Assembly: GCA_022316685.1 (NCBI GenBank)
Contig: JAKJHU010000038.1
Location: 916,384-980,383 of the forward strand
Length of the DNA stretch: 64,000 nt
Origin: Progne subis subis
Taxonomy: Eukaryota > Chordata > Aves > Passeriformes > Hirundinidae
Reading direction: 5' to 3'
A program made the translations under genes and the position numbers. The notes beneath the pieces were generated by a model. The model worked only from the letters and a program-made list of their open reading frames with translations, made no database searches and had not been told where the DNA came from. The number at the start of each line of letters is the position of its first letter. The first letter of the stretch is position 1. Shown one piece after another: positions 5,120 to 63,474 of the stretch.

Positions 5120-5251
5120 ATTGCTCAACTGAATGCCCTTATAAACATGCTGTTAGGGGAACTCGCCCCTGGTGATCATCAGAACATCATGACAATATGC
5201 ACAATTGATGTACATGCAAGGGATGTTGTAGCCACGCTTATAGCACAGAAG
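5120..5251 (+). pseudogene. Dynein relic exon: end of linker / entry to AAA1, reading frame intact
   Basis: Forty-four codons without a stop lie between an acceptor (ttattttgcag) and a donor (gtaatttg), phase 0 at both ends. The translation contains [12 protein letters not shown] and [14 protein letters not shown], a signature of axonemal dynein heavy chains located just before the AAA1 ATPase module. This is the best preserved exon in the window and identifies the family by itself. Against the family sequence as I recall it, usually conserved basic residues are changed (GDHQNIM where GDRQKIM is usual; VVATLI where VVAKLI is usual). That fits relaxed constraint. Taken alone it could be an exon of a working gene; the broken exons downstream argue otherwise. 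Confidence 0.9.
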
Positions 5252-5783
5252 GTAATTTGTTGCAGAGCAATTACACTAATGCATTTTTAAAAGCATAAAA
5301 TAAAGTATAATTTCATTTGTTGAAAAGATATTCTGGTGGCTTATGTATGGCAATGACAGAACACTTTGATTAAATCAATTTTTGTCCTTTTATATTTTTT
5401 GCTTTAGAGTTAGATAATTACATTTACCAGTTAAAGAATTCACATTTTAAAATATATAGATATTTTGTCCAAATATTTAAAAACTTTGTTTAAAATGTAT
5501 GCTGTAATGTGACAGCTGGTTTCTCATTAATTTGCCTCCCATTTCTGATCTTTTCACAACTAATATAAATCTCACACTTATTGGAGATAGCTAGAAAGTT
5601 TAATATATACAAAATATAAGACAGCAATTGCATTATGTTTCCAGGTGGCTTTTGGGTTTTTTCTATAAATAGGTTTTATTTCCCTACCAGTTTCTGAAGT
5701 GGAGTCTGTACTGCTAACCCTTTCCATGCCTGACTTCTGAACTGCTGGTGCCTATTTATAGTAATTTGCTATTCTATCTCCAG

Positions 5784-5985
5784 GCTGTGAACACTCAGAC
5801 AGGAAGGAGATGGTGAGAGGCATCATGGAATGTCTGCTCCCTTATGCATGGTTAGGCAGGTAAGAGAGAGCTGTTCTGTCTTCCATTCCTGCTGCTTGCA
5901 GCCAGCTGACCTCCAAAGGGGGCACAGCCCCCACTTTGAATAAGCAGCTTCTTTCCAGAGTCAGACCTCTAGAGCTTTTCTGTTT
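5784..5985 (+). pseudogene. Dynein relic exon: AAA1 N-terminal part including the former Walker A region
   Basis: The segment follows the acceptor ctatctccag in phase 0, matching the phase of the preceding exon. It starts AVNTQ where dyneins have VENSQ. In one frame there follow RRW, a stop (TGA) where Asp is expected, E and NVC (for NIC), matching RHRWDDTEKHCF..NICDAQF with deletions. About 70 bases on, the DNA resembles the coding sequence for HLT..GAPAGPAGTGK: a ctgacc core, a gggggcaca stretch, then an aag codon at the Walker A lysine position. A donor-like gtaaga at 5860 may be chance or may end the exon early. The second half is weaker than the first. If correct, the main ATP-hydrolysis P-loop of the motor is destroyed. 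Confidence 0.5.
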
Positions 5986-6711
5986 ATTCATGAGGAGTAA
6001 CAAAGAAGAGAAAAACTGTGTAGGTGTCAAGTGTGTGTGTGTAATGCACATCTATTCACTCATCCTCTATAGCCTGTCATCCTTCTATCCATCTGTTGCA
6101 TTCTAGCATTTACTCACTGTAAAATTCACCTTTTGGCAACACATAGCTGCCAAGATCAAGGATTGTGCTGTTTCTCTGCATTTCCAAACACCTTCCTATC
6201 CCTGCAACGGTAAGCACTTGATTATTTTGCTTTATTATAGGTCATAATTTTGCTGCAGACCAGACACAGTATTTAGGTTTCTCAGAAATCCAGTCTTTAC
6301 ATAAATGGCCTAAATAAATAGTTCAAGATGAAGACCACAGTGAACTTGTGGAAGTAAAAATTGTTTTATTTGAAAGAAAGAAATAGAAAAAAAACCACAG
6401 TAAATTATTTCAGTTTACCATGAAACCTTATCCAGTACAAAACGGTCTCTTAGCCTTTTTAACTGGTATTCTGTAAAATTGAGGAAAAAAAGCAAAACCA
6501 AAAGCAACATGAGCAACAAAAAAATCCCTCAACACTCTTACAGTTTCTGAACAAAATCCATTCTACTAAGCATAATCACTTTGTTGTGGTGTGATGCATA
6601 ATAGCAGTTGCATCGAAAATTTGCAGCAATTTAAAATATTCTTTTCACTGAAATTGTTTATCCACATTGCCAAAGCCTTTAAGGAAGTACTGATGTTTTT
6701 CATATTGTCAG

Positions 6712-11400: not shown

Positions 11401-12038
11401 CCTCTCTGGGGGTTAGCCACCTAAAGGCAGGCTACTTTCCAATCTCTCTAGAATAGCCTGCTTCCAAAGTAAATAAGTCCCTTGAAAGACCCAGCAGAGC
11501 CCTCTCTGGAGAGGTAGACTTCTCACTTTTCACCTCAGTGAATGAAAAATATCCCTTTGTCTTTGATCAGAAAAGATGCGATGTGCCATTTGAGTTTTTC
11601 TGATGGCAGGGTTATCCTTCTAACATATGTACCAACAAAAGTGCCTATTGTGCCTCCTGAAATCTTTGTGAATCAAATGAACTATGTCTAAAACACTCCA
11701 TGGAAAAGTCTATCTTGTTGTTCTGGGTCCTCAGCACTGCAGCTGGCTCTTTTTCTCTTTTACTATTGCTAGCTTGAAGTATCTATAAGGGTTTATGGCA
11801 AACTGGAGTATAGGAATGCTTTTATGAACTCAATTGCATCTCTGTTGATTTGCTTTCTGTTGTGGTGCTTTGAGTTAAGACACTGCAGGATGGGGTTTGG
11901 CCAAAGAAGAAAGTTAAGTGAGAAATGAAGTGATTTTTAAGCTAATTTTTGTGTTATCCTATGGCACAGTAACTTTCTTTTGATTTTTTGAGGGAGACTG
12001 GTGAATTTGAGATGGCAGTTTTTCATAGTAGTAAATGT

Positions 12039-12882: not shown

Positions 12883-13130
12883 TGTTTTCTGATGTATGCA
12901 TTAGGAACAAATTCTCATCAGCAGCAACATAGTAAAAGGATGGTGCCAGTACAACTCTGTCTCACATGTTCATATTTTCTTTTCTCCCTGAAGAGTTTAT
13001 GCAATGATGATTTCAGACTTTTGTGTGAAATAGTGTTGACATCAGAAGAGACACAAATTCAGTGAGACTCATGAGAAACCTAATCTACCTCTCCACGTTT
13101 TATTGTATCTATATAGGTGCTGGAGGAAAA
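12883..13130 (+). pseudogene. Dynein relic exon: AAA1 C-terminal part (MNPGYAGRTELPENLKALF / LICEIML region)
   Basis: The frame read from 12880 ends in FRLLCEIVLTSEE, matching the dynein stretch FELICEIMLVAEG. Just upstream are SLKSL and the DNA for CAMM (tgcaatgatg), as in ENLKALFRPCAMM, with a deletion of about three codons (FRP) and two smaller ones. Further upstream, ggatggtgccagtacaactctg resembles the coding sequence for GYAGRTEL. Downstream of 13062 the sequence resembles the RKFITLYTLCKELL coding stretch, with stops. No clean splice sites are left. This is a decayed exon recognisable only by order and local matches. Confidence 0.55.
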
Positions 13131-16287: not shown

Positions 16288-16483
16288 GTTTTGATGAGAG
16301 CCCTCATGGGATTTTAATCTTATTATGGCACTCACTAATGATGTCCTTATAGTCCAGGGTCTCATCAATAGCTTGTTCCCCTTGCTGGAAGTTTTATGGA
16401 AAAGCGTTCTGAAGTTAGAACAGATGGTGCATCAGTCCATTGCAGAACTCCGTTTTCAGCCGGAGGAAAACTTTATATTGAAG
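16288..16483 (+). pseudogene. Dynein relic exon: AAA1/AAA2 junction, one-base frameshift
   Basis: After a strong acceptor (tttcttttttaatctag) the frame reads VLMRALMGF and stops at 16315-16317. Ignoring one extra G in the run at 16308-16310, the other frame continues DFNLIMALTNDVLIVQGLIN, then LFP, then HQSIAELRFQPEENFILK up to a GTGGAA donor. This matches [24 protein letters not shown].DLFP...QSI.EL..Q.EENFVLK of beta-type axonemal dyneins with no other gap. The length is 65 codons plus one base, which makes this the clearest single inactivating change in the window. Usually conserved residues (PK after DFNL) are also replaced. Confidence 0.85.
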
Positions 16484-16651
16484 GTGGAAATAATGGTTTT
16501 CTGCTTAGCTTATTGTAAATTCTAAATGGGGTGATTGAAGACCATAATGATCACTGCTGTTTGATGCCTATGAGTTTCAACATCTGGCTAATGCCTTTAC
16601 TAGCCATAACAGTAAGAAAAGGCGTTGTAGACTTTTCTGCTTCTTTCTCTT

Positions 16652-18107: not shown

Positions 18108-21100
18108 GTAAGGTTTGGCATATTAATTTCCTTTGCAGTGAACCAGTAATAGTGGCATCAAATGCCCATTCTTCAGTAAAATACACTCTACCTCTTTCAA
18201 CACGTTAAGCTCTCTAAACAGACTTTAATGTGATTTATATGTATTGCTGTAACAATCACCAAGACACTTAAAATATAAATCAATACATAGTAAAGCATCT
18301 GTGATTTGGTGAGTAGCCTTTCTGTTCAACACTTTTCTACAGTGCTAGTTAGTTATGCCTTTTTGTCTTCCTCAATATGGCTGTTTTGTCTCACATGGTG
18401 ACTGCAACGACGGAGATAATTAGCAGAGTTGCAAATGTTTCTAATTACTTTATATCAGTTTTAGAGAATCCTAAGTAATTGGCAAATTGGACTTAGCTCT
18501 CCAAGCTTCTCAATGGGATGGAAAGTAATTGGAGTGTCAAAAGTACTGAGAGATGGCCAGTGATACAAATATGAATGAAACAGCAGCCAGCACTGTTTTG
18601 AGTAGCTAGACAACTAATCCATTTGGTACCATTCTCAAAAGCGTATTCCCAAAACACCAGGCCAAGTTGCAGAACAAAGCCGTGCTACACACCTCCTAGT
18701 GTCAGATGATCCAGTAACCGAACAGATGGGGAAGAAGAAGAAGATAGCAATTTGCAGCATGGTAGGGCTTAGTAAGGGTTTCGTACTCCTTGACCTATTG
18801 ACTGCTTCCTCCTATTTTTTTTTTTTTTTTAATTTTTAATTTTTTTACCATTCTAACATCTGAAAGGCATATGAGGTCTGCTTCTCACCAGGCATACAGC
18901 TCACCCTTCTGTCTGCAATCCTGTCTTGCTTATTCATGCTTCCAGTAATAGAAACACTAAGGTATATTTTATTTTGTGGGTACTTCCTGGGAAAAAGAAA
19001 ATGGAAATGCATTTAATGATTGCTTCTGAGGGTTTTAATTTGGCCTAGGATAAAAAGGCTCTAAGGATGAACTGAGGTATGAGCCAAGCTTATCTCCATA
19101 GGGTATTCATCAGTTCTTCTAAGCCAGACCTTGCAGTATGATTGCAGAGCCTCTCTACTGCATAGGTTTACTATACTGAGTCCTATTAACATGCATGGCT
19201 GTGTTATATTTTAAGATCATAGCATTTTATTGAAATTGCAGTAGGGATGTCTGTCTTATGTCAGGAAGATATAAGTATTAGGGTAGTTAAGTTCTGTCTT
19301 TCTATGCGCTTAAAACATCTATAATTCTTTTTAGCTCATCTCTTGGATTAAAAAAAAGAGCACTGCTGCAAAGAGCAGGGTTAGGCAAAAACTTCTTTGA
19401 GGGGACTGTGTACACTTCATGATAATATATAAATTTGAAACATCTGAAAATGTCATATAATACTAGCCCAACCTGGTCTAGAGAAATAAAGTGATAATTT
19501 GAGAATTTCCACTTCTATATTATCAGGTCTTTCTGAAGTAGCCTAATTGAAACCTTTCTCAAGACAATAATTCTTATTTATCTTCTTATTCCTTCTCTTT
19601 ATCTTAACTAAATATTCCAGAATAGTTATTTGGGGTGGGAAATTCTTTATATATATATGGGGATTTCTTAAAGGTTTTTTAGTGCTACAGAGATATTTCT
19701 AAAATGTATGTCTGTGTCAGGTTGCTAGTTATCTTCAATTTTAAGATCTTGTGACTCTAATTTCTTACAACTAGAAGCACTTCCAACTGTGACACTATCT
19801 TTTGCAGAATCACAGAATATAGTGAGTTGGAAGAGACCCACAAGTATCATGGAGTCCAACTCCTGGCCCTGCACAGGACCATTCCCGAGAATCACACTAT
19901 ATGCCCAAAATGCTGAAATGGGGAAAAGTCAGGTAAAAGAAATTATATTTTCAAATACACTCCATAAACACCTGCTTTGCTTGCTTGGGATTTTAAAGGG
20001 AAATATTTTTGTAAAACAATATGTGTGTTTAAGTTCAATACTTCAAAAGCATATGCAGCATAATGAGTAGAAAAACAGATTCTATGAATCACTGTGTGAA
20101 CCCCAGGTAAGCTGCATCAAATTGGTGCATTTTGCAAATCCTTTTGGTAGGGTTTTTTGGTTGTTGTTGCAGGGTTTGGGTTTTGGGAGGTTTTTTGTAG
20201 ATTAGATGAGGTGTAAGGTTATCTGTATTTTAATGCCGTATCTTATAATTTATTTTTACAGAGTATATTTTCCTTCTTTGTTTCTCTGCATTTCATATAG
20301 TCAGCAGTCCATGCCTTGTTTAATTCATCACTCTCCTTATTTTGCTCCTTTGTTAAGCCAAAACCTTTTAAACCAATACCAGCAACAGAGAAATTCTATT
20401 AGAATTTCAGGTATTGCTAATTCAATCCTTGCCTTCTACATTTTTTAATGCTTCTTTTCCTGCTTATATTTTTGGCATATGAAATGATCAGAAGACAGGA
20501 ATTTATTTCAATTTATAGCCAGATAAAGAGAAAATGTAGCTATGCTCTGGCATTGTCTTTGTCATTAGAGGCTAAAGCTGCAACATAAGAACTACAACTT
20601 GAAGTTAATGCCATTGTGAAGCAACATTAGCCTTAAGACTGTATACTGTGAACATTTGGTGTGTGTTCATCCTTCAGTGGAGGAGCTAGAAGTCTCAAGG
20701 ATATCTTCAAGTAAAATAGGGTAAATTAATAACATATTACATAGCTATGGGCAATGGAAATCAACTTTGAAAGTTCAGCTGAAAGTTTACAACATAGTGC
20801 AAAAACCCTTGTTTCCAAAAAGTAAAAAACCCCCCTAAGTCTGCCACAGTCCATGATAGCCCAAAATGGATTGTGCTTGGTGGAGATATTGACTGTATTC
20901 AACTGACTCAGTGAACTGTCATGGACAAAAATGAGGTCAGTGAATTATTGCTATTACTTCTGTATTACTATTACTTCTGTGCAGTGTACACTTTACATCA
21001 GTTTCAAAAATGCCTTTAATAATATTAGCGTAATCAAAATAAGTGTAAACATTATCAGACTGTAATACATGAATAACCACACATAAAAAATTATACATAT

Positions 21101-21607: not shown

Positions 21608-21654
21608 CCGCCCCCAAGAAACTCCTAGAGGGTTTGCACTTGAGGACAAATCTG

Positions 21655-21800: not shown

Positions 21801-24800
21801 AATTTTTGCCTCCTTTTTTCCCCTCAGAAGTAGGAGGACACAGCAGCAGCCATGACCATGTCTTTTAATATATATCTGTGTGTACTTTGGACTGGCTTCT
21901 GCCTGCTGGCTGGTGTGAATAGGGGGCAGATGGATATGACATTTCTCTTTACTGTCTCCAGATGACTTAAAAGTACCACGTGATCCCTGTGCCCTAGGAG
22001 GAGATTTGGAACTGCCTTAAACCATCACCTGTCCTTTAATGAATGTCTCAGATTTTGTAAACTGTGATCCAAAGTGTAATTGCTCTGTTCTGTAATGTGG
22101 TGCAGTTAATTTGTGTTTCAGTCAGAAAATGTTGTCCTAATTTTCTGGGTGGTGATTACTCTTCCAACCAGCGAAATTGGCTTGAATGTTCCAGTGCATT
22201 TTGTTTACTGTTTAAAGGCTGATAAAACTCTCATGTATTATTTCCTTTTTGGAGAATAATAATAGTGCATTCTTCAGTCTTCAGTGTTGATATACCCATC
22301 TTCCAGAAGGATTTTGAGAGATTTCAATTATCAGATATTTCACAATACTTTTGTAAGTGCCTTTGGAAAGCAGAAACTGAGTTTTCAGAAGTTATTCAAG
22401 TCTGTAGTGTAGATGAGCCTCCTATCCTGCAAAAAATATCTCGTGTTTAACACTGTTGTGTGTGAGCAATACTGTCAGATTCATCAACATCTACTCAGAG
22501 CCCAATGAATCCTTGGGATAAACATATTAATGCTGAAATATCTTAGCATTTACATGTCAGGCAGTGCCTATGAAGTCTCCAATGTCTTTTGATTAATGTA
22601 ATAAGTTCTGTAAATAGGACTGTTCTGTAGGGAGAGGTGTGGGAAGTCAGTTTTGTACAAAATCTGTCAGTAGTGACTGTAATAGTCAAAAAACCCTGAA
22701 GGCACCATGAAAATTAAATTTCCATTGGTGTATGTACAATTGTTCTTTGAAAAATCAGTATTAAACAATATGAAGTTTTTAACCCAAGTGATTAGAGGTT
22801 AATGTTGAGCAAATGTAATTTAAAAAGGTTTTTCCACTTTCAAAAGAATGTTTTTAAGTTCTACTTGTCTGCACATTCTTAAGTGGGGGGAAAAAAATGT
22901 CTCTAACGAAAAACTAGCAACGAAAATCTTTAGAGGCAGAGAAAACTTTATAAGTAGAGGAAATAAAAGAGATAGAAGCTGATGAAAAGCCGCTTAAAAT
23001 GGAAAGTGGCCCATTTCCTTGATCTCATGATATATGGTAGACCTAAGAAATTATCAAAATGCTTTCATTAACGCATATTTTGCAATATATACAAAACATA
23101 ATTGTTCAGTTGATAAACCATTGTAGTGTTTTGTAGGAAAAAATTGGTTTCAGTTGACACTATGAATCCTGTTCAAAAAAACATTGCAACTTAATAACAT
23201 GCAGGTGGCCATGACAATGAGTTCTTGCTTTTTTTGGTGAAGTTCTGTCAGCACCAAGTAATGAAAGTATTTCAGTAAGACTTCCAGGGATTGAAATGAG
23301 CCATTTTTGGGCAGTGTATTTATCTGCAGTATCCAGAGGTGACTGGATACTGAGCCTATGTGAATACATTTGACTCAGGCTGGAGTTCGTAAGTAAAATT
23401 ACCAGACTAATCGAAGCATCAGGCTATCTTGCCACAAAAGAAATGTTTAATTTTAGATGCTAAGGTATTTTCCACTTTAAAGCTACAGACAGACTTAAGG
23501 TAGGAAGCCAGATTTCAATATCTAAAGTTCTTTGTCAGTTTAATTAGCTGTTGTCTGGCTTTCTAATAGTTTCAGAATCTGATTTCACATATTACAGTTT
23601 GATGGCTGTGGTGCCGGGGAGGAACCACAGAAGGGTACATCATCCAAAAATCACATGAATTTTAGAGCTATTCATCAGAGGCATTTTCCACCTACATCAT
23701 TGTCCTGCTTCATTTTGTGCCACTTTCAATTTCCAGGTAGAAAACATACACGGAGGATTGTATAATTCCTGAACATAATTTCTTTCCAAAACCTCTTTCA
23801 GACTTTATGCCTTTCCACTTACCATTAAGTGGCAAAGACTTAACAGTTGTCCTGATAAGAGTGTAAAGATAAGGATACATTTCCACTTCTTTGAAACAGC
23901 AGCACAGATAGGATGATTCTTTACCCATATATTTTGCAGTTTATAGTTTGTTTATTCTTTGCAAAATATCTTGAAGACTGAATGTACGTACATTTCCCAG
24001 CAGTTCCTTCACTACATTTTGCACACTTCTATTCACCCCTGCAGTGACCTCATGGGCTTTCTGCCATCTGTCATTGTTCCTTTACTCTAATGTACAGTGC
24101 AGCCTCACGTAGTTTAAGACTTTGACTGATATTTATTAGATAGACAGGATTATTGCCCGCAGATGGCTGTGGTTCACAGCCAGAGGCATCTTCACAGAAC
24201 TAGTGGGAAGAGATTTATTCATGTTACCATGTGACTTCTACTATAAGCTAATTTTAGCTCTGGGTTTCTCTTGATAAGTTAAAATGAAACAAGAACTCTG
24301 GGTCAAATTTATTATTGCCTCAAGTGATGCAGTTTCATTGATTTTTGTTGAGTCATACCTGTATGTCAGGTGTGAAATTAACTGTCCATTTTTTTCATTA
24401 GTAAAATAAAAGGTATGAGAGTATATTTTAACTACAATGCATGTGTGCAGTTACAAATATTTCTGGTCTTGAAGCTGCACCTTTGGAGCAGAAACAACAG
24501 AAAAGATTTATAAAGTCATACAGTTGTTGCCAGTAGATGACATTGTCTGCCAGCTTTACATTTTCTCTGCTTCTTTTTATGGGCCACTGGAGTCATATAT
24601 TCTGTCATTCTCAGTGTGAGACTCGGAACATTTCTTTGGCAAAGTCAGGGAGACTGGCGTGTTGAAAGTGAGCCAACGCAGTCAGGTGGTTTCATTTGTA
24701 CTTGATTTTGAGACTAGTTCTTGCAGCAGATTGGACATGAAAATTGTATTGTATCTTTTTGGTGTGTTTTTATTCATTGCTAGTGAAATAGTTGCTGCTG

Positions 24801-26135
24801 GGAAATTTAAGAAATCTAATCGGTAATAAATACACTGAATTGAATCAGTGGCTTTTCTAATATCTGCAAATTCTGTTCAGTATAGTGCAGCTTTATGTGG
24901 GTCTGTGTTATAACATTGCAACTACCAGTATACAAATTAAAGTGCCTAAGTATTTCCTTGCTATAGACTGAAGCAGAAATTCCCAGCCTCCAGATTGTAA
25001 TCTACAGGGAGTTTATAAGCAGTTGGGCTTGAGGGGACTGGTGCTTGAAACAAAAGCCATCTGGAATACACATGACAAGATTCTGCTAGAGGAGAGTTAG
25101 GAGCAGAAGTAGACATAGGAAAATGCTGCATTCTCACACTGCAAGGTGCTGGGCATCCTTTCCATTTCGCAGGGAAGTCAGTGGGAATTAGGAGCACTCA
25201 GCACTTTCAGCTTCATGAAATTCAGGAATGCCATATGTAGTTAAATATGTTAAACCAAAAGATGAAGTAAATATGCTAGGTGACGTTCTGCCAGCAGAGT
25301 TATTGATGCCAGCGTCAATATAAATTCCCACTCTTTGTCATTACTACTTTTGTTGTTATGACAAAGATGATGTTGGCAGTATTTTAATTTTTTGCTTTTC
25401 TGCATTGAAGCTGATCCAGACTGACACTTGTGAAGAGCACATCTGATCATACTTTCTGACATGGATGTTCCTTCTGTTTTGATAGTGCAACTTTAAAACC
25501 ATTGCATTCATTCCTCAAAATGCCACGGTATGGGTAACAGTAAGAACAGAATTTCTGTTCTGCTTCTTACTGTCCAGCCTGGTTTTCAAACATGCTTGTT
25601 ATGGATGAGAGAACAGAAAGGTGAAGGGAGCATGCTTGCATGTGGAGGATTTGCAGTTGTTTTCTTTGACAATATGAACTCAACACTGTTTTGTCCTTCT
25701 GTGGCCATTGAAGTTGAGCTGGCACAGGAAAGAATGCAATAGCTATAAACCCTGTGTAGGTGGGTCAGTGCATCTGAGAACAAGTACAGTGTTTCAGGTG
25801 CAACACCTGCAGGATTTAACCCGATGGAAAAGTATCTCTTCATGCTTTACTAAAGACATTTCTAGAAGAAGCAGGCTAATTTCAGATTAGACATGTCAAG
25901 ACATGGAGAAGAGTCATTGACACAGCAGGTGCATTTAAATGTAACTGTCTAATTATACAGTGATGCAAGTTTGCTCCCAAGAAACTAAATGTACAGTGCC
26001 ATAGAAAACATGGTATCTGCCTGTCATGCTGTTAAATAGAAAAGCAGTCTTTGGCAGTCAGGCACGTTTCATGTATGAAATCATAAAAATGGTGGTGTGG
26101 CAAACATCTGATCATATACATTCTTAACTGAGTAT

Positions 26136-36817: not shown

Positions 36818-36935
36818 CATAGAATCGGAATATGCTGAATTGGAAGAGACCATCAGAATTATCCAGTCCAACCCCTGGCCCTGCACAGGATGTCTTAAGA
36901 ATCATCATGTATGTGTCTGAGAGAGCTCTTGCATT
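36818..36935 (-). mobile_element. CR1 LINE fragment, 3' end, minus orientation
   Basis: It begins tcatagaatcgg and continues with ttggaagagaccatcag, atccagtccaacccctggcc and aagaatcatcatgtatgtgt, the reverse-complement CR1 tail. It closely resembles the copy at 19806. Confidence 0.9.
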
Positions 36936-44400: not shown

Positions 44401-46973
44401 TAATTCTGTAATCTCTGCATCCCGCTCAATTGTATGTTATTAGCATGCTCTCTAGCACCTTACTTTTGTCCTCATTTTTATTCCCTTCGTCGATCAGATT
44501 AATTTAAAAAGATGCAATGTTGCATGTAATCAGGAAAAAAACCCAGCAATGCAGGCCTTTTTAAGCCATGCCACTTACCAATCCAGATCTATAAAGAAAA
44601 ATAATTTGTAAGTGGAAGTGAGTTGCAGCCTAAGCTCAAAGGTGCTGCCATCTGTCAAAATGAAATAGTTGTGTTTGTACAGAACCCTACACCCAAGGTC
44701 CTCAATGTTAAGACTATTAAACCACATAACATCCCAGTGAGGGACCTAATAACAGCATATCTGTTATAGAGATCAAGGAGATAAACCCCAGTTAAATGAC
44801 TTGCCCAAGAAATAACTATCTGCTACTGGCAAGAAAAAGAAATGAACTAATTGACCCCATCTTTCAGAATCTGTTTTAATCTTGAGACAATTCTGCTTGC
44901 TCATCCACAACTATTTCACTTACAGTTTACCTTAACATGTTTTATTTAAACAGCCAGAAAACTGTAATGTATGTGAATTATGTAGCATGTTTTCCAATAC
45001 AAAGAGCCCATTAAACATATTCATTTTTCTGTCTGGCTCCTCCAGTTCATGGTTTCCTCTCAATGATAAGGCATTATGAGGCCCTATATTGTATTTTTCA
45101 TTTGGAGATTTATAGACTGCAATTTTTTTCTTTCCCTGCCAGCTTATCCGCTACACAAGCTAACATCATAACTCATTTCTGCCATTGATATGGCTATTTT
45201 CTACAATGTGAATGAAATACCTGGCGTGATAAATATTGAAGTGTATCTGCAGTTTCATTTTCACATACAATTGACACTTTTCAAGGAATAAAACCATTGC
45301 TGCAGTATTTACCAAGTGTCCCATTATAATTCTGATCTTCTTGAAGAGTATTACAATAGAGCAAGCAATTCAAAATAATTTCTCTTCATTTATGGCCGTG
45401 TTGTATTATTTCAACATAATCATGCAGTAATAGAATGAGTTTTGTTTATGACAGATATTTCATATTAGAAAATGTGCATATAGATACCACAATAATTCTA
45501 ATATTGCATTTCACTACATTTTCAGTGACAGGAGAATGCACTATTCTCCTACACCAAGTTACAAATGCTATACAATGTAATCCTGCTGAAATACCTGTTT
45601 GTATTTTAGTTTTTCAGTGTTAATAATCCTTCTGTATTACCAAAAAATTAAGATCAGTTTCAAGTCTCTGTATTTTTGCGTGCTGCTTATTTCCACTTTT
45701 TTACTTTGTCTGTTAAGTGACTCTTCATCACATTAACTTAGTATCTTAAAAACACACATTTATAGTGATTGATGTTAGTGTGTGAACTCGCCTAACATTT
45801 TAACGTAGTATTTCTTTTGCTACTAGGGAAGAGGTATTTCTACAGCTTGTCTTTGCAAATAGGCTGTCTTCATTCTTATTGCTAAGACAGCTTGCTTGCA
45901 ATGTTTTGTAGCTGTTTTTCTGGAGAAAGGGAAACCACTTATGTTGGTTAAAAAGGCTGAAGTCAGGAAATAGGCTGCTCAGTCTGCCAAGGGTATCAGA
46001 CTATCAGGACAATATGCAGTGGTCCATGTCCGTTGCAGTTACCACATGATATCTCCTGTGCTTCTCTGTCTGTAGCTGTAACAGTTCTTCAATGGGCCCG
46101 GTTCTTTCACATAATTGTTTTTTGCACCACTGCTGCTGTAGTAGAATCAGTGAAGTTTCTTTTGAGTAGAACTGTGGAACAAAGAAAGGATTAGAATCCC
46201 TAAAATGCATGCACAGCCTCTGAGTAACTCAATAAGCTCAATCAATGATGAATGGTAACTCTTCAATAGGAATCCTGTCAATTCTAGTAGAATTTTTTGA
46301 CATCCTTTTTATCTATTCTTGATCAAATGTTTTTTTAGAAGAATAAAATACTTATTTAATGCAGTATAGCTATCACTCATTCTCATAAATGTGAAAAGGT
46401 AAATAACTATTTTTATGGTATAAACTATTAGTTTTATAGCCTACCCTTCAAGAGGAAGGGAGAGATAATTGCAATTACAGGGATTTTGGCAGACTGGTAA
46501 TTCAGTTTCAAGTTGTTGGACATGTACATGGAATACTGTGATATACAGATTTATTTTTGCTGCCTTTATGCTAAAGACAAACTCAAAAATAATAGCTACT
46601 ATTTCTGTACATCCTTCAGTTCTGCCTAGTTGAGCCAGGTAAAATTAATTTCAGGGGTTCCTGGACAGGATTTGCTGCAGCAATGAATCAATCAAAAATA
46701 AGTGAAAAGGTAGTGGGCAAAGAGAATAAGTGTCGATGGAAAAGAAACAGGTAAGTCCCAGAATCTTCAAGTCATGGCTTGGCGTCCTCCCTGTTGTCAG
46801 TGAGAAATGATTTGAAGACCTCTCTTAACTTTATGAGATGAGTAATGAGTAACATTACATATGATTTCAGTCAATTGTGTTGTTCATCTGTCAAGCTAGA
46901 AGAGGAGAAGCAATTAAAATTAATACAGAAGAAAACCAAAACAACAACAACAACAAACCACCAGAACATTTAG

Positions 46974-47292
46974 GCCCTGAAGCAGTTGGTATTGGAGAAG
47001 TTTGGATCAGGTAGATCCCATGGGTTGTCTCCTGTGAGGACTGGTGCTCAAAGTGAAATTCCTGCTTGGATACTTCTAGGCATGAGGCATGGCTTTAACG
47101 TTTACTGTAACAGTATCTACTCTGTTGGCTGTGTTCTCAAAAACCCTTGGAAGAGAAAACAGAGAAATTATGCTCCTTTCCGCTGTTAAAGGTAATTAAT
47201 TTCATTGATGATCTTATTTTTCCTGATGCTAATGTCTGTTCTTCCATTTACTTCCATTCTCTAATCAAGTAATACCTTGACTATAGAGATTA
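46974..47292 (+). pseudogene. Dynein relic exon: AAA3 from LEKL through former P-loop and FIDD Walker B to LDYGHW
   Basis: After an acceptor (gaacatttag), in order: VLEKF (for FLEKL); VRTGAQSEI where the AAA3 P-loop G.AGTGKS belongs, so the Walker A lysine is lost; NVYCN (NVPFN); CVLKNPWKRKQRNYAP (for VLEKPLEKKAGRNYGP); a stop at 47187-47189; and a frameshift to LI-FIDDLIFP (LIYFIDDMNMP). From FIDD to the splice site, 31 codons align without a gap to FIDDMNMPEVDAYGTVQPH..IRQHLDYGHW, ending LIK-stop-YLDYRD. The CAA-to-TAA stop lies at 47270-47272. The exon ends with 'ta' before a GTAAAA donor. Joined to the 'g' that opens the next exon this gives TAG, where Trp (TGG) is expected. Confidence 0.85.
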
Positions 47293-50044
47293 GTAAAAGT
47301 TTTAATAGTTTTCAGTTGATGCTATTTATTTTAGTTGATCACACTGTAGTGTCTGCCTCCACTTTTGTTATTTGCTTTGGATGTTTAGAGCTGTAAGAAC
47401 CCAACTTTGAATCAGTCTGCACCATTCACTGAAAGACCAAATGCCTGATATTCCAGAGAAAGGAATTCACAGGATATGTGTCTAAACTGCAGAACAGGAG
47501 AAGAAATTAAATAAAGGCCACCATAAAAGCCATTGATTCCTTTAAAGTTGGAGGTAGACTGTAGGAGCTTTAGCTTGTGCACCAGCTCTAAGGCGTCCAG
47601 TTCCTCACCTGCTATCTGCTAGTGGAAATGCCTTTACAAAGAAACTTCACTGGTAAATTCAGCATAAATGGAATGTGTTGGAAAGCTAATACAACCTTAG
47701 AGTCTTATAAACTTTCTACTGCTTCCCTGTTGCTACCTGTGGATATTTCCATTATGGTCTTTCTTCATGGTCCTTGGAGAGTTCCCACCTGAGGTGGACA
47801 GAGTCACAAGGCTGTGAAGGTGACTCAAATATGTCTTTTGAAAGAGGATGACCTATGTACAAAAGGAGAATCTCCACAAGGGTGCAAAACTTCCTGACTT
47901 GCGGAAGTAAATATGGGAAGTCTTCTACAGAAATGTTCTCTGGTCACTTTCAGAGGTGCTTATGCATTCTTTTATGTCCAAATAGTGACCACCATATCTG
48001 AGAAAAAAGCTATTACTGGAGTTTAAATGCACAGACCCAGACACATGGGCTCAGAGAGAAATATGAGTTCCTAAGAGTTCCATCTTATTTTGCAGTTTTG
48101 TTTGGTGCTACAAGATAGAGCTGGAGACACAGAAAGAAAACCTGAAGAAAACTTAACTTAGATAGACATTGGGACATTAAAAACACACAAAAACTTTGAA
48201 TAATGTTGACTGCTTCCTGCAGTTTGGGAAAAATATTTTTTAACATATAAGTTCTACTTTAAGCTTTGCTGTAGAAAGCCTCCCTGATGTCCTGAAATGT
48301 TCAAAGAAGTGCTAGGTAATAATTAGTGCAGTCAAGACACAAAATTACTGCATGGTGGGCAAAAGAAGCAAGCAATGGATGCAAAGCCATGGGATGGGAA
48401 ATATATTTTTAGATATTGTTCCTGATTTTCTATAACGGTCTGTTGTCAAATCAAGCAATGTATTTCCAGTTGGTTTAGAGGGAATACATACTCTATCTGC
48501 TTACCTGCAGTAAAGTGTTTTGTTGTTATTGTTTTGCTATAGTTTTGGTTATGGGAAATATTTTAGAGCTGGATGAATGGAAGGGCAGAAAGAGATGTCG
48601 CCATTCCTTTATCCCCAGAAGCCAAACAGTCTACTAAGGTGCGCTTCTGGACTTGTTCCCTTTTTGCTTGAAAGACTTTGAAGCATGTTATGTTCAGGAA
48701 CTCCAAATCACCATTATGCACCCTGTTAAATTTGCAAGAGGATGGGGGAGATAGGAGATGGATCAAGGAAGATGGCCTTTGTCCTTTGCAGTTATTTCAC
48801 TTTAAAATAAACATCTGTGTCTGCAGGAAAAGTGGCTAAGAGGGGACAGGAGTTTAGAGTAAATACTTCAGGATGCTTGGATTCAAATGTTAGTATTCTG
48901 CATACGGCTATCTAATAAATCTAGACCAGGAGACATAATAATCCAATGGCCTGCCTACGGTTAGGCATATGCTTTGAAATTAATCATTTCAGTGTTTCTA
49001 CTGGATTGTTAATGTGAAGAGAAGAAGACAAACATTCCAACTCTAGGAATTTACATTCTCTTATTTTTTTTCTTCCTAAAATAGCTAAGGAATTTATAGA
49101 TACAGATTTTTCTGACCTAAAATTATATTTTTTCTATTGTCAATTACAATGCAACAGCCAGATTTGTAGTCCTATGCTATTGCAGTAAAAATTTTAATAT
49201 CTATAAGTAACTTTTTACTGACGCAAATGTTCATCCCTGAAATCCTTTTGGATTCTCAGTGAAGCAAAATCCAACAGACATAATTTAATTATATATGTTC
49301 TTTCCCTTTCCCCTTCAGACAAGGAAAACCACCTTTCTCATATATTGAGAAAATTTTATTGAGCTAATTTGAAGGCCTAAAAAACAATTATCCAAGAAGT
49401 TAGCTACCTGTCATTGCTAATCCCATGCAACATGATATGGAACAGAAGAGAAGATTACTCTGTAAGATGTAAGTAAAGCTCTGGTAGAGCACTCATGGTG
49501 ACAATAAAATAGAGCTTTCAAGGGGGCTGTGGAAAGTTAGAGGTGACAAGCTGAACTAATAAAACCATCTATCCCATAGGTGAATGAGTAAGCAGAGTGA
49601 TTTTCAGCCCAGAATCAGCCTAATACGTAGGCCAGAAGAGGAGTGATAGTGTAGAACATAAACCTGCATTTTGTGGGACAGAGGGGGAGGTTGTTGCCAG
49701 CTTATTGGCTGACCTGCAGTTAGTGGAGGTAGCCCTTGTCTTGGAGGTGACTGCTGGAATTTTTTCCTACATGGAAGATATTCCAAATCTACAAATATAA
49801 TTCAGTGAGAGGAGGCCAAATTTGGACCTGTCAACTTTGACACATCCCTTAAAATATTCCAAATTATAGCAATGGTGTGTAAGGGAGTTGTAACAAAGGA
49901 GAGATTTTCAGCTCTTTTAACAGAGAGCTATATAATCACACTTTCTTGTAGAAGCATTCAGTGTGAAGATCTGTCAATAGAAATCTCAAACTGTGAATAT
50001 ACAATTGCACTTTATTATCCCTTTGTTATTTTGTAACTACATAG
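47293..50044. other. Relic intron between two AAA3 exons
   Basis: Bounded by a GTAAAA donor and a CATAG acceptor with matching phase. No repeats or genes recognised. Confidence 0.6.
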
Positions 50045-50147
50045 GTATGACAGACAGAAACTGATGTTAAAAGAAATCCACAACTGTCAGTGTGTCACAT
50101 GCATGAATCCCACTGCTGGAAGTTTTTCAGTAAATCAGCATCTTTGG
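50045..50147 (+). pseudogene. Dynein relic exon: YDR.KL.LKEI...CMNPTAGSF (AAA3), frame intact
   Basis: A 103-base segment starts after an acceptor (taactacatag) with one base that completes the codon begun in the previous exon. It reads [15 protein letters not shown], then [16 protein letters not shown], and ends at a perfect GTAAGT donor. Beta-type axonemal dyneins have [27 protein letters not shown] here, so family identity is secure. No stop or frameshift is present, but several conserved residues (INPRLQ to VNQHLW) have changed. Confidence 0.9.
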
Positions 50148-54835: not shown

Positions 54836-55188
54836 TTTGACTTGTGCTTTCAATTTCTGGGTTTCAGTGTTATTAAAATATCTATGTGGGTATATTTTAA
54901 AAGAAATAATTATCCTTTCCTATACACACACTATTTTTTTAATCTCAGGGAATTTTCTCTGTTTACTGACTGGTCCCCAGAGATGGATGCTCTAACCACC
55001 ACAGAGAGAGCAGGACCATAAATATCCTTTTGCAACACAGGAACTGCAGTTACAGTGTAGTGAAATCTATCATCTCTCTCATGTAAGATGCAAGCTGTCT
55101 GCATCAGAAAAATACCCAGAACTTTCTACCCACAGTGCCTATGTTCAACTATGGTTTTAATTTTAGAGATTTGATGTGTATATTCCAG
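54836..55188 (+). pseudogene. Dynein relic exon(s): HFSVF..SFPG ... GNF ... LHQK..[19 protein letters not shown]
   Basis: The last part is strong. From 55099 one frame reads LHQKNTQNFLPTVPMFNY, then GFNFRDLMCIFQ, matching LHQK.[25 protein letters not shown] without gaps. A TAA stop lies in frame at 55084-55086, twelve bases before the LHQK match. The donor that should follow IFQ reads CTAACA instead of GTAACA, a probable splice-site loss. Upstream, FDLCFQFLG (54836) recalls FSVFVLSFPG, and SGNFLCLL (near 54945) recalls L.LGNFPASV, in a frame shifted relative to the first. Exon length is larger than expected, so insertions or a lost intron border lie between the blocks. Confidence 0.75.
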
Positions 55189-56432: not shown

Positions 56433-56477
<45 letters not shown>

Positions 56478-59400
56478 TTTGGGTTTTTTGTTTTGTTTTG
56501 TTTTTTGTTTTTTGGGGTTTTTTTTGTTTGTTTGTTTGGTTTGGTTTATGTGTGTTTGCTTAGCCAACAAACCTAAGCACAACCTGAGGACCCCTGAGAG
56601 GTCCTTTCCTCCCTCCCAGTTTAGTAGATTACCAGAAGCTTATGCACAGAGCAGGCTGTAGGGAGGGAAGAACAAGCAGAGTGCTGGGGCGTCCAAGTGG
56701 CTCCCATTGGAGATGATGGCTTCCTTCCTCATCCTTCTCAAGTCCACCTTCAAATGTTACTGTACTGGTTGTCTTCTCAAATGTGAATGGTCCTTCCATT
56801 TCCTCCTGCTGCCTCGTGCCCACAGGGTTTGGCAGGATCTTTCTTGAAAAAGCACTTACATCACAGTTCCTGCACTGCCTCCTGCATGTAGGCAGAAAGT
56901 GAGGATGGAGATAAAAAATAAGAGAAAGCAAAGAACAGTTAACAATTCTGAGTTTCCCTCAAAACAATTATTGAAAAAATACCATAAGATTTGGAAACTC
57001 AGTGAACCTATTGTGATTTTTCCCCAAGCTAGCTTTCCTTTTGTTTAGCCTTTATCTGGGTTAGCTTTTAACAAAATCAGCTGTCACTTTCTATATGAGT
57101 GAGAACATTTTTAGTAGTGTGGATCAAGCTGGCAACAAGTGAGCAGTAGTGTGAGACCATCAGCAGGTGCGTGGGAGACAGCAGCAATTTGGGAAGCCTG
57201 AAAGAGTGCTGGTGGGGGAAATCAATGTTAAAAAAGCATTGTAAAAATCTCTCTGGTCAGGTATTGCTGGAACAACTGTGCTGCTGAGAGCATAATTTGT
57301 TTTGCTATTCTTCAACAGTTTCTGATCTTTTTATGTTATCTCTAGGATTTAAAACAATTTCCTTTTTTTCAATGCATTTGGAAATATTAATCTTTGGATT
57401 GAGGTAGGAATTTTACCCATAATTCCTGAGGGCTGTTTATTTAACATTTGTTTAGAAGCAAAGAGGAGAGCAGTTTTTTGAATCTCACACTACATCTGGA
57501 TCAAAAAGTCACTGCAAAAAAGAGAATTTTAACAAGAAATACCTCAATCATGGAAAACTTCCAAATAAAATTTCCCAATAATTATATCTGTTAGACATAA
57601 AACCAGCTAAATTTTATTGAATCAACTTGTACGTAAATATGAAAACAGTAGGGAAAGTATGGTTACAGGAGCCACCTACACACCAAATATTTATTAGCAT
57701 GCTTGTTGAATTTAGTATTAAGTGTCAGGGTGATTCCCTGCTGTAAAAGCCCAAGTGAATGCAATTGTATTAGCACTTCGCAGCAGAGAGACTCTAATCT
57801 GCCAACTCCTAAAAATTAATGCAACATTCTTGAGGAAACCATGCTGGAACTGGCACTCTGGGTGAAATCCTGAAGCGAAGAGGAACATTTTCATTGCCTT
57901 TAATGAGTCCATCATTTGTTGACTGATAAGAGCCAATGACAGAATGGAGAGCTGGAGTAGCAAAGAGATAGTTAATGAAGGGTATACTAAAGGGGCGAGG
58001 TGAACAACACATCAGAAACAATGGGGAGTGTCTTAGCCTCAAGTCTGATGTGCTTTTCATAATGCTGGTGTAGTCCTTTGGTATTCAGTGTGTCAGGATA
58101 ATCTATACTGGGAGTGAAGTTAGGAACAATACAGAGCAAAAGAGGCAATCCAGAAAAAAAAAATTTCAAATGGAAGCTGGGACTCCAGGAGGATAGTCAG
58201 GTTATGCTACAGAGTAAGAGGTGTGCCAGAGGTAAATAAAATGGGATTATAACAAAGATGAAAGTCATAGAAAGAAGGGGTAATGGGGAGAATTCTGTTT
58301 CCAAAGCAAACAAACAACCTAATTACATAACTCCTTTTAAAACAGGACATTAATTGTCCATTGAACATAGGCGCTGTGGAAAGTAAATATTCATCTTTTG
58401 GTGACCCAAGAATGCATATCATTGACTGAAACTTTTGTTTCTAATGAGGGATTGACAGTGTCATCAATAAGGAAAAAAGTTTTTTGAATTAAAATGTTTT
58501 TGCAGGGAGCACTTTCACCACCCCAGTTTCTTATTTCCTTGGTCCTTTTATGGCTCCATGAATTCATACTGTATTTCCTTAATTAAATGTATGGAGGAAA
58601 AAGATACTGAACATTTTAACAAAATTTTCATCCATGCTACAGAAGGTACTTGGAGGTATGATTCTCAGCATGAGGTAAGACAGGTATCTACCCTGTTCCA
58701 TGGCATATTACACTCTATGTACTAGGAAGATGAAAGGGATGTTTTTATACTGAAACTATAACTTTTACAGGTAAATTGTTAATTATATTTTATTATTGTT
58801 TGTTTACTCTGCTCCTGGTCTGAATGAACATAATTTCAATATAATAGAAAAGAGTATAAAAACAAAATCACTGGAGTCATAAGAAGAATTCTGTCTTCTG
58901 TTTTACTTGAAGAAGTATACTTATTGAAGTTTCTTCCTTGTGATGAGATTATTTATCTTTTATTGTTCAGATGCTACCACCTCATGGTTGCATGCCATGG
59001 TAAAGACTAGGAGAATATTCATGATCAATGAAGGGCACACAGAAGTAGAGTGTACTCCAAGGAGAGCGGAGTAAAATGATAGCATAAAGTGCCTGGAAAA
59101 TATCGTCCCATAATTTTGGTGTGAACTCGTTTTCTTCCAGAAAAGGAGCTGAAATGAAAATCTTTCAACAAATTCTGCACTGCATTTTCAGCTGTTCAGC
59201 TGTCTACAGAGAGAAGACCCAGCCCAGGATATCTAGCAGCCAGAACTTCTGGAAATGGCATACTGCCAGAGTCTGACAGAAAATAAATTAAAATATTATC
59301 TACTGGTTCTATATTTAACAGGGTTGTTCCCAGACTTCGTAAGTGCACGCACAAAAAGAGAAAATTGTGGTAAAGGGTTAATATGCTGGGTGAATACTTG

Positions 59401-59839
59401 TTTATATCTCTATATTGTTAGCACCAGGGTGTTGATGAGCACATATTTATCCATAAGCCACTAATTTACTGCCACTTTGCCCATGGTGTTGGAGAACCTC
59501 GTTACTTCCCAGTATCTGATTGGGAGAAGCTGACCAGAATTTTAACAGAATCATGAGAGCACTACAACGAGCTTCATGCTGCAACGCACTGTGCTGTCTA
59601 AGGCTGCCACACTGCACATCTAAGTTTCTTTTCTTTTGAGACATACAACATGTGCTCTAGCAGAGTTAATCACTGACGTGCAAATTCATTTAACGGTGAC
59701 TTGTAGGAGTATTAAAAATAACCTCCCAGGTTTAAGGATATATGCTGAGTATCCCAGGCACTTATCACAGTTTTAATATGAACTGTAACCATTTTTAGTT
59801 TTAATGCTTCCAAGAAGTCTTCACTCACTGTGAATTGTT
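55189..59839. other. Relic intron
   Basis: Contains the (TTG)14 microsatellite and its T/G-rich tail. Otherwise AT-rich with no recognised feature. Confidence 0.55.
56433..56474 (+). repeat. (TTG)14 microsatellite with T/G-rich tail
   Basis: Fourteen uninterrupted TTG units are followed to about 56550 by T/G-rich low-complexity sequence. The glutamine run it encodes on the minus strand belongs to a chance ORF. Confidence 0.95.
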
Positions 59840-59929: not shown

Positions 59930-62900
59930 GTATGTTAAAACTCCTTCTTACAATGTTACAGAAGCTTCAAACCCTCTTCTTTTTGTGGAGATACTAAAAA
60001 GGATACCAAAACACAACAACAAAAAAATCTCTGTGTGTTAGAAACATACACAGAGCTTTAGAAAAGAGATTTATTTAATGCTGTTAAACTAGCCCCATAT
60101 TTTGTTAAGGGTTCATGTGGTGCATCTGCTATCATCTGTTTAATGTATTCCAAGGGGTCATCTCATATAGGAGCAGTTACTAATCTGCAATTAGAATTCA
60201 GTGCATTTTGAAAAGAAAATTAAGAGTAGTTGGGTAAAGAGAATGGAGTTTAAATGTAAATTTACTAAAACTTCTTTTGGAGGAATTTCTGTGGCATACA
60301 TTTCATGTTTCTAAATCTGACAAGTACTCGGTAAAGTGGTTCAACTTTCCATTCCCATACAGATTTTATTTTTGTGCTGAAATGCTAAATTCTGCACCAG
60401 TTCAATTCTTTTAATGATTTATTAAATTTTTTTCCACAAAATTTGTTAGAGAGTCATTATGTCATTTAATTTAGGCTTGTTCGTACAAGCAAGGATTTCC
60501 ATGTCCATTTCTCAGAACAAAATACTCGTTGCTTTTGCTGGGTGCTCACTTATTGCATTCCGTATAGTTTTAACTGTAAAATGGCTTTGGTTAGATTTGT
60601 TTTGTATTTGTTTCTTCACCCTCTGTTTCTCATACAAATCTAAATTGGTATCGGCTTTGAATTGCTGGCACACTCAAAATCTGCACCTCTCCCGTTACAT
60701 AGCAAGGTAAAATAAGAAAATATTTCTGTTTACATTGGCTCCTTCCTTTCATCTCCTCAAACCTAAAATGACTTTGGTATAAATTTAAGTAAAGTGTCTT
60801 ATTACAAAAATCTTGGTGCATCCAAAAATTACTCGTTTATAGTATTCTCAGGGAAGTAATTGGATTTATCTCAGTGCTAAATGATGAAGAACCCCCAAGA
60901 AATAAATGCAGGCTTCATCCACTGGGACCCAAAGCAGAAAGCAAATTAGCTCTTTATCTTGTTTGGATTTTTGTTAATCAAGAAAAATGCACTTAATTAC
61001 TGTGACAGGAAGCAGTGCATGTAGAAACTGCACTGAGCCTGGAGCCAGATGTCATGCAGTCTAAGATAGCTTAAGTTTGTTGTGCTGCCTCTCTGTCAAC
61101 AGAAGAGAACCTCCTCAATCACAGCTAGAACTTGTTATTTTATTCAAATAGGAATTTCAGTAACTCACATAAGAGAAACTTTTTTTTTTTTTTTTTTCAT
61201 GGCTATGACTTTTTTTCTTCGGTTTTGGCTTTAGTTTTAGTTTTTTAGCATGGCCTTTTGAGATTTGCGGTTGTTCTGAAACCTGGACAAACTTAACATC
61301 TCTGTGACCTTTCAACCTCTCAATTTGTTTTGCAACTGGCTAGCGAAAATTGCCAACTTTGAATCAACAGACAAGCATTTTGTTATTCATATTCTCATTA
61401 CTGAATGAGAATGGAAATAAAGCGAATTAGATACCTTTAAAAAACCTACATTCATAAGGTGAATTAACACAAAATGCAGAGCAGGACTCAGCCAAAACCT
61501 TTATTTTGTTCCCTCTGGCTGCTCTGGGAATCACAGAAGTTCACATCAGGAACAGTTGGATCAGCATAGATCAGTTTATGAAGATTTTATTACTATATTC
61601 TAGTCCATTACTTTTGATAGTCCAAATATCTTAAGAATGCCTGCTATCATACAAAAATAAATATTCTTAGTCCTATTTTTATAATTATCAGCTGAATTCT
61701 TGAGACTTCTTGTGGCAATGCTTTCTTAATTGGAGTTGGAAGTAGTCTCAAACAAAGTCTATACTGTTTGGCAGACTTTCACAGCTCATTGGAGTTTTAT
61801 CAGGTCTCCAGACTCCAAGGAGAAGGTCAGGGTAAGGATTCTGGATTGTTGTGATGTTACATTGAAACATGAAGTTCATAAAGCCTTGCTGACTCCCAAA
61901 TGCCAGCAAGGAGAGAGTGCTTGCTTTCCACAAGGAATGGCCCAAGTCAGATTGTGTGCCGGCAGTGGGGTTAAAGCTCAACAGCAGATTGCAGGGTTTC
62001 TTTCTGCATTAGTGGTTGGACTTGATGGTCTTGGAGGTCTTTTCCAGACTTAGTGATTCCATGATTCTTCTCCCCATCATTGCAGAGCTTTCAAATTTTG
62101 ACCCTGGAATACTGCTCTGTGAATCGTCTGGTTTCATACATGGGCTGCCCTTGTGATTGCATTCCATCAGTAAGCAATGTCAGAAGGCAAATGAAGGTTG
62201 GTCACCACATGTGTGCATAGTTTCTCATCTGCTCTTTTTTATTTTTCTCAGCCTTTGGAATGCTAATTTAACTTCCGTGTTTATGTTGTTTGGGCACCTA
62301 TCCCAAATTCAGACCATCATTCAGCAGCCTATTACACCAATTCCCAGCAGAGTGCAGGGATCCATGACAAACGACGTGCAGCCCAGGCAGGGGGTGAAGG
62401 CTGTGGTGTGAGAGAAACACTGTCAGAGGCACAGATCCCAGTTCTTAGCTCTGTAAGGCTCTGCACAAGCTGGGAAGCCACTACCTCACAGACAGGTGAT
62501 AGGGTACCAGACAAGTGGCTAGGTGAAACCTAAATGCCTGTTCCTGGCTCCTACTGTGTTCCTACTATCACAGTTTATCTGTAATTTAGGAATGAAACAT
62601 ATAATCTTACCAATTGCCCTGTAAAAGTTGTCAGCTCCTTGTTTACACGGTTCCATGAAATAGATAGTGTTTCAAGGTTACTTGTGACTTTTTGTTCAGG
62701 TGACAGGGAATGTTGCTTCTAATTAACTCACCATGTTCATCACAATCAGATTCTTTACATCCTTGGGACCTGCATTACAGAGAAATTGCCTCCAAGTATG
62801 ATGTAGTAAGAAGAAACTAGCATTATTTAATCTACTGGAAATTCATAGAAAGTAATGTGACATTTACCCCATTTTGACTGACAAAGTAAAAATATTACAG

Positions 62901-63289
62901 TATTACAATATTTCTCAAAATATATGTTCAGCAAAACTATATTTGTATTAATTTTTAAATTATTATTTTTACATTATTAGAAAGGCTTCAAAGATAGATC
63001 TTTTACTAGGAATATGCCTCAAGTTATAGAAATAAAGTAAGTATTTTATATTTAGAATGAACAATAAAATGTAGTCAGTGATGAAAGAGTACTATGAAAT
63101 GGAGTCCAGAATATCAGAAATAAAATCTGCAGAGAAAAGATTTTTCTGCTTTTTTCATCAGCAAAATTTTGTAATTACAAAGTTTTCTCCTATGTGTCTG
63201 ATGGGTGATAGTCTCACAGCACCAGACTGAAGGCAATGCTTATTGAAGACTGATCTTGGTATATTTGTCTATTTTTACTTTATTTTTAG
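59930..63289. other. Relic intron with a CR1 tail
   Basis: Holds the CR1 3' end at 61985-62070 and a T run near 61182. The dynein exon for the short KD..LFD..Q.E stretch is not recognised. Confidence 0.5.
61985..62070 (+). mobile_element. CR1 LINE fragment, 3' terminus
   Basis: It contains ggttggacttgatggtcttg, gaggtcttttccagactta and the end gattccatgattctt, the diagnostic CR1 3' terminal repeat type. Sequence from about 61840 may belong to the same insertion, but I cannot define its 5' border. Confidence 0.85.
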
Positions 63290-63474
63290 AAAGAGGTACA
63301 CTCATGGCATCTTTACTGAATCTCTTACAAGTACTTTGCTATGTAACAACGAAGAAAATTTTGGCTCAAAATCCCAGACTAATGGCAATCAAAATGTCTC
63401 ATGTTGATTTTGAAGAATTCTTAAAAGACATAAGCTAAGTTTCCAAGGATTCTGGACTCTTTGCTCTAAAGCTG
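63290..63474 (+). pseudogene. Dynein relic exon: HFAQGIGDPKYMPV...LLVDVLE...LVLFEDA region before AAA4
   Basis: After an acceptor (tttactttatttttag) the frame contains ILAQNPRLMAIKM, matching HFAQGIGDPKYMPVTD with a clean three-codon deletion (GIG). EEFLKDIS and a TAA stop (63436-63438) follow, aligned to KLLVDVLE. After a shift, ctggactctttg recalls LVLFE, and the segment ends at a GTAATC donor. This is the last exon before the AAA4 P-loop exon, which should lie beyond the window. An AATAAA near 63592 is probably incidental. Confidence 0.55.

Follow-up and report, generated by a model that had tools for sequence, protein, structure and literature searches.

Remains of a dynein heavy chain gene

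Which gene, if any, once occupied a 64-kb stretch of the Progne subis subis genome (contig JAKJHU010000038.1, positions 916,384 to 980,383; hereafter the window, GC content about 38%), in which the longest start-to-stop open reading frame is at most 155 amino acids? As judged from its sequence, the window is very probably the central part of a multi-exon gene, now dead, that coded for a fourth vertebrate dynein heavy chain of the outer-arm beta type, sister to DNAH11. The identity of the gene, the order and strand of its pieces, its frameshifts and stops, and the loss of about one third of otherwise invariant residues can be observed directly. An earlier note had described a decayed outer-arm-type dynein heavy chain gene, of the DNAH9/11/17 type, of at least 14 ordered segments on one strand at 5120..63474.

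Short dynein heavy chain segments, interrupted by stops and frameshifts, form a plus-strand chain in protein order from 5117 to 61806. They were aligned using a purpose-written colinear local-segment alignment, in which frameshifts and introns are permitted. When the profile represents the fourth paralogue, the chain reaches 923.6 bits, against 110–142 bits in ten controls (eight permuted); with a DNAH11 profile it reaches 722.9 bits, against 96–125 bits in 11 controls (the reverse complement, the reversed profile and nine permuted). The fourth-paralogue profile places 15 of the 37 forward segments above the highest-scoring of 397 control segments (26.3 bits), which bears out the claim of at least 14, even though three of the 15 (23357, 25486 and 31740, at 26.3–26.8 bits) pass only marginally. 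Eight segments below the control maximum were retained for the decay count and the tree, because their position in the order fits, with stronger segments next to them or on both sides. The same picture is seen with other methods: a six-frame scan with a DNAH11 profile hidden Markov model gives ten plus-strand matches in protein order (domain E at most 0.0024) and a single minus-strand match (E 0.19), and tblastn with turtle and crocodile DNAH11, part of the check proposed in the earlier note, recovers a chain of plus-strand matches in order between 5117 and 61.8 kb amid some weak unordered matches.

Individual pieces also point to this family. Compared with the Protein Data Bank, the 59-amino-acid piece at 16310–16486 has DNAH17 (E 1.6e-8) and DNAH9 (3.7e-7), both beta-type heavy chains, at the top of four matches. 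Ten peptides, seven of them exon pieces, were searched against Pfam, and four of the seven matched: AAA_6 (piece from 16310, E 1.8e-4), AAA_7 (50040, 2.9e-6), AAA_lid_1 (55087, 8.8e-7) and AAA_8 (61696, 0.0012), in the order of a dynein motor. AAA_7 and AAA_lid_1 reach the curated cut-off, AAA_6 and AAA_8 fall below it, and the exon pieces 5117, 45863 and 59428 have no dynein match in Pfam. Ten long non-dynein open reading frames of the window gave nothing above the Pfam cut-off, and an Rfam scan of the window gave nothing at gathering cut-offs. A chance match, or an artefact of generic paralogy within the AAA+ family, could account for single pieces which only reach the control maximum (23357, 25486, 31740); however, the order, the strand, the domain order and a total score many-fold above the controls already refute it, and we give it a negligible probability.

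The roughly 1100 codons of the chain are spread as separate pieces, with splice remnants, over about 57 kb. A processed (retro) pseudogene was considered and ruled out, because the introns remain. The reading of the locus as a dead multi-exon gene over nearly the whole window thus stands, with its stops, frameshifts and introns.

Identity of the gene

The identity of the window is highest to a clade of vertebrate proteins, here called the fourth clade: 67.8% to tuatara P0187 (522 codons), 68.7% to skink P0195 (252 codons), 65.2% to frog P0177 (509 codons) and 62.1% to shark P0173 (522 codons). Lower values are found for 21 DNAH11s (54–59%), for the 15 DNAH9s sharing at least 200 codons (46–52.5%; two short DNAH9s show 61% of 41 and 46.8% of 62 codons) and for five DNAH17-labelled proteins (44–49%). 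Looking at single exons, 59425–59583 is 92% identical to the skink and 91% to the tuatara protein, and 50040–50144 is 86% and 89% identical, respectively. In the maximum-likelihood tree the window falls within the fourth clade (bootstrap 100) and adjoins tuatara (85) and skink (88). The approximately unbiased (AU) test rejects its placement with DNAH11 (1.2e-8), with DNAH9/17 (1.2e-41) and outside the fourth clade (3.1e-9). At diagnostic sites, the numbers of residues matching the fourth clade, the rival or neither are 21:2:10 for DNAH11, 44:4:27 for DNAH9 and 51:3:24 for DNAH17. Membership of the fourth clade is firm on these sequence comparisons, and the gene would be a fourth vertebrate outer-arm beta-type paralogue, not DNAH9, DNAH11 or DNAH17. 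The earlier assignment was therefore right as to the subfamily (outer-arm beta) and wrong in naming three genes of which the window is none.

With only DNAH11, human DNAH9 and human DNAH17 in the comparison, the gene looks like DNAH11: summed exon scores are 1257–1338 for DNAH11 vs 1124 for DNAH9 and 1155 for DNAH17, and DNAH11-type residues outnumber DNAH9/17-type ones 14 to 2 (9 neither). On that basis we at first adopted DNAH11, an identity overturned by the tree with the fourth clade. That the gene is a decayed DNAH11 orthologue itself agrees with those figures, with the 722.9-bit chain of the DNAH11 profile and with the scarcity of bird DNAH11 records among the matches listed; against it stand the AU rejection and the 21 to 2 diagnostic sites obtained once the fourth clade is included, and the two exons with 86–92% identity to the tuatara and skink proteins, so that we regard it as highly unlikely.

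Several points weigh against this picture or blur it. In trees without the fourth clade, the window sits on a long branch close to the base of the DNAH11 group, and a DNAH9/17 placement is not rejected (AU 0.47); for this reason other paralogues were added (27 fetched proteins), and the fourth clade was thereby recognised. The identities given above are biased upward, a consequence of locating the segments by means of a same-family profile. One of the five DNAH17-labelled sequences (P0258) falls with DNAH9. Within the fourth clade, the AU test rejects shark and teleost placements of the window and favours it as sister of tuatara; a position outside tuatara and skink, as expected of an archosaur, is not rejected (AU 0.478), and neither is the skink-sister (0.21) or the amphibian-sister (0.083) placement. 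On balance the tree prefers sauropsids as the source of the window.

The window shares with the members of the fourth clade (tuatara P0187, skink P0195, frog P0177, basking shark P0173 and fish P0175/P0179) the clade itself, the exon order and the residues diagnostic against DNAH9, DNAH11 and DNAH17, but it differs from them in its stops, its frameshifts, a lost splice site and the absence of about one third of their invariant residues. DNAH11, the left-right dynein, is a sister paralogue with the same domain layout and is rejected as orthologue of the window. DNAH9 and DNAH17 belong to the same outer-arm beta subfamily, have lower identity and are rejected by the tree.

Exon remnants and their borders

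Residue numbers refer to tuatara P0187 (A0A8D0L2M4), and all remnants are on the plus strand; the chain covers residues 212–1306. The first remnant (5117..5254, residues 212–257) precedes AAA1, is identical to tuatara at 42 of 46 residues, has no stop and keeps its AG and GT borders; the exon is likely 5120–5251. The earlier note's start near 5120 therefore holds (AG at 5118–5119), whereas the supported end is at 61806 rather than 63474. AAA1 is represented by an exon remnant at 11778..11912 (366–410) with stops at 11811 and 11871 and a GT following, by a possible fragment at 13009..13047 (458–470; 26.1 vs a control maximum of 26.3 bits), and by its end at 16288..16486 (528–593), with an AG before, a GT at the end and the AAA_6 match below the cut-off. 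A frameshift had been proposed at 16308–16310; the frames do differ there, and this is the one frame jump of that segment.

The AAA2 remnant (20852..20938, 677–706) consists of two pieces with a stop at 20912 between them, and a piece below the control maximum lies upstream of it (20572–20685). It is followed by a short remnant at 23357..23389 (745–755; 26.8 vs 26.3 bits), by two pieces at 25434..25530 (770–804), the second barely above the control maximum, by a remnant in two frames at 30534..30612 (808–839), whose first piece is interrupted in frame by a stop at 30576, and by one at 31669..31821 (850–907) which equals the control maximum (26.3 bits) and is found with the fourth-paralogue profile only, not in the chain of the DNAH11 profile.

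AAA3 begins with the P-loop exon remnant at 45863..46063 (909–974, from 45866), preceded by an AG and carrying a stop at 45971. The next remnant, 47141..47284 (980–1028), changes frame near 47178–47188 and has a stop at 47270. Both the 47270 and the 47187 stops were listed previously: the former is indeed in the frame of the supported AAA3 piece, while the latter is present but sits where the reading frame changes. The third AAA3 remnant (50040..50144, 1030–1064) is identical to tuatara at 31 of 35 residues, has no stop, is followed by a donor-like GTAAGTA and contains the AAA_7 match above cut-off. The AAA lid remnant (54947..55188, 1066–1145; AAA_lid_1 above cut-off) has a stop at 55084 and no GT after it. 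Further downstream are a remnant with two frame or codon jumps (58533..58655, 1159–1199), one identical to tuatara at 48 of 52 residues and to skink at 92% (59428..59583; one stop, 59554; AG border kept), and the last supported piece, the AAA4 P-loop exon remnant (61687..61806, 1267–1306; stop 61693; AAA_8 below cut-off), in which the P-loop is altered.

All the stops named here other than 47187 and 47270 are in the frame of supported pieces and were missed in the first reading, whereas two that it listed find no place in the chain: 29584 lies outside every segment, with the pieces near 29.5 kb unsupported, and so does 63436, where the 63.3–63.4 kb peptide has no Pfam match. The splice remnants, said to be mostly present, are mixed when inspected by eye: the 5117 and 16288 exons have an AG in front and a GT behind, 45863 and 59428 are each preceded by AG, and a GTAAGTA directly follows 50144, but 55188 is not followed by GT.

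Extent and age of the decay

Over 676 aligned codons (marginal segments included) the window shows 8 stops and 10 jumps in frame or codon, and it agrees with tuatara at 440 residues. With its stops, frameshifts and changed AAA4 P-loop, the window has no open reading frame for a working motor. Of 483 residues that do not vary among seven relatives, the window retains 325 (67.3%), with 7 stops, whereas twelve relatives, left out in turn and taken as working genes on the basis of their conservation, keep 94–99%. A neutral simulation needs 0.2 substitutions per site to produce an equal loss and then yields 7.7 stops; without the weaker segments 233 of 330 invariant residues are kept, which corresponds to about 0.17 substitutions per site. 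The neutral rate in birds is roughly 2–3 substitutions per thousand sites per million years, and at this rate 0.17–0.2 substitutions per site would place the beginning of the decay some 55–100 million years ago. An estimate made against DNAH11 (165 of 245 kept) is superseded by the comparison with the fourth paralogue.

The decay is uneven: over 11 exons a single neutral rate does not fit (chi-square p 3e-7), unless hidden frameshifts explain the two low exons. Better preserved than under neutrality are exons 5117, 50040 and 59428, with 79 of 86 invariant residues among them; the eight others keep 41–92% each. Two of these eight, 45881 and 47189, keep 27 of 65 and are worse kept than neutral, for which the simplest reason is hidden frameshifts. 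Some exons might still be in use, in a short isoform or as regulatory DNA, with the remainder dead. Such use would account for the retention in exons 5117, 50040 and 59428 (28/30, 25/28 and 26/28; P 0.0025, 0.0125 and 0.005 in the neutral simulation), two of which have no stop and carry donor-like signals; but exon 59428 has the in-frame stop at 59554, the low exons may merely hide frameshifts, and eleven exons were tested. We consider residual use improbable, and a gene dead throughout its length the better description.

Loss of the gene and DNAH11 in birds

The window combines disabling mutations with retained introns, as in a unitary pseudogene. The ancestral protein, based on the subfamily of its living relatives, would have been a motor of the outer dynein arm in motile cilia or flagella. 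Selection on this fourth chain would have lapsed, and point changes and small insertions and deletions would then have built up about as fast as under neutrality, with DNAH9 and probably DNAH17 doing the work; the locus would now yield no motor. The loss may most simply be put down to redundancy with DNAH9 and DNAH17. We hypothesise that the fourth paralogue was lost across birds.

The window could instead be a dead extra duplicate of a fourth-paralogue gene that survives intact at another place in the genome. The evidence comes from one window, and no search was aimed at full-length fourth-clade proteins of birds, which leaves room for this reading; yet there are no birds among the 22 proteins (of 259 fetched, drawn from the best 120 per listing and length-filtered) that best match a fourth-clade reference, and a whole multi-exon gene would have had to be duplicated, with introns and exon order kept, before dying. 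A duplicate is unlikely, and the death of the gene itself is the preferred reading.

Concerning DNAH11, the best 120 of 2871 and the best 120 of 604 matches include DNAH11 from mammals, turtles, crocodile, squamates, tuatara, amphibians and fish; no bird DNAH11 is among these two sets (90% clusters; one unnamed entry in the second). The best 120 of 524 matches include 24 bird entries, namely 23 DNAH9/DYH9 from 11 species and one DNAH11. This sole bird DNAH11 among the matches listed is P0169 of the tawny frogmouth ('LOW QUALITY PROTEIN', 2967 amino acids), which groups with DNAH11 and not with the window. It keeps 1049 of 1222 residues (86%) that are invariant in other DNAH11s, vs 96–99.8% for 21 DNAH11s left out in turn, and looks decayed or badly modelled. 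A residue-sharing test between the frogmouth protein and the window gave 3 of 40 (permutation P 0.13), in a comparison with DNAH11, the wrong paralogue. Birds may have lost DNAH11 too.

A broader and tentative proposal, which we hold to be possible rather than probable, is that birds, once their embryos no longer used a left-right organiser driven by cilia, lost the whole DNAH11 branch (DNAH11 and DNAH11-like) and kept DNAH9 and DNAH17; the two genes would have gone at different times, and the frogmouth DNAH11 would be a younger, less decayed relic. Among the papers listed, surveyed by title and the opening of the abstract, none reports DNAH11 loss in birds, no search having been aimed at the fourth paralogue and absence from print not being established. 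Birds are described as having no ciliated left-right organiser (PMC5872349; PMC5947769), and chameleons as also having no motile cilia at the organiser, yet expressing Dnah11 later in ear and kidney (PMC10126504); because chameleons still express it, organiser loss alone does not predict dynein loss. In chicken, a 2015 paper places a transgene on chromosome 2 in what it calls the 'thirteenth intron' of DNAH11 (PMC4447378); some chicken annotation thus existed, which counts against DNAH11 loss in all birds. DNAH11 mutation is given as a cause of primary ciliary dyskinesia in people (PMC7331728); if birds are also without DNAH11, their cilia would function without a primary ciliary dyskinesia gene.

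Other features of the window

Two stretches of about 100 bp, 19806–19905 and 36821–36923, are 84% and 77% identical to a CR1 3' end, presumably of the avian type; one shuffled control gave none. Alongside the sauropsid position in the tree, they would point to a bird as the likely source. They form the one interspersed repeat pair in the self-comparison of the window, a method to which single-copy repeats are invisible. A minisatellite with 11.5 copies of a 47-bp unit (53104–53651) is located in an intron of the dead gene. On the minus strand, 23776–24051 matches a dynein heavy chain C-terminus weakly (about 27% identity, E 0.003 with one query), in the wrong place and on the wrong strand; one of 60 shuffles with one query and none of 60 with another reached it, so the match is near chance.

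The fourth paralogue among vertebrates

Records of the fourth clade are found in tuatara, skink, frog, caecilian, teleosts and shark, under the names "DNAH11-like", "dynein heavy polypeptide 9 like", "dynein 9 like" or plain DNAH11. Tuatara P0187 and basking shark P0173 carry the plain name despite their place in the fourth clade, and arowana P0258, for all its DNAH17 label, falls with DNAH9 in two trees. DNAH11 and the fourth paralogue are two genes, because four species are each listed with both proteins: tuatara (P0119/P0187), basking shark (P0130/P0173), caecilian (P0107/P0181) and reed frog (P0158/P0177). Humans have three genes of the outer-arm beta subfamily, and the fourth is thus missing in human.

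In a tree that also takes in amphioxus, Ciona and insects, the last serving as root, the fourth clade is sister to DNAH11, and DNAH9/17 lie beside amphioxus and Ciona. In the same tree DNAH11 and the fourth paralogue fall outside the group of amphioxus, Ciona and DNAH9/17 (support 0.920), a position which may mean that the two lines separated before the vertebrate genome duplications, or that their early change was fast.

Vertebrates would accordingly have had four beta-type outer-arm heavy chains and not just the three of humans, and the window would be a datable relic of the fourth. Owing to the shared public names, work on 'DNAH11' outside mammals may combine two genes. Which lineages among fish, frogs, lepidosaurs and birds kept the fourth chain and which lost it would make a natural experiment, bearing on the ciliated tissues that needed it.

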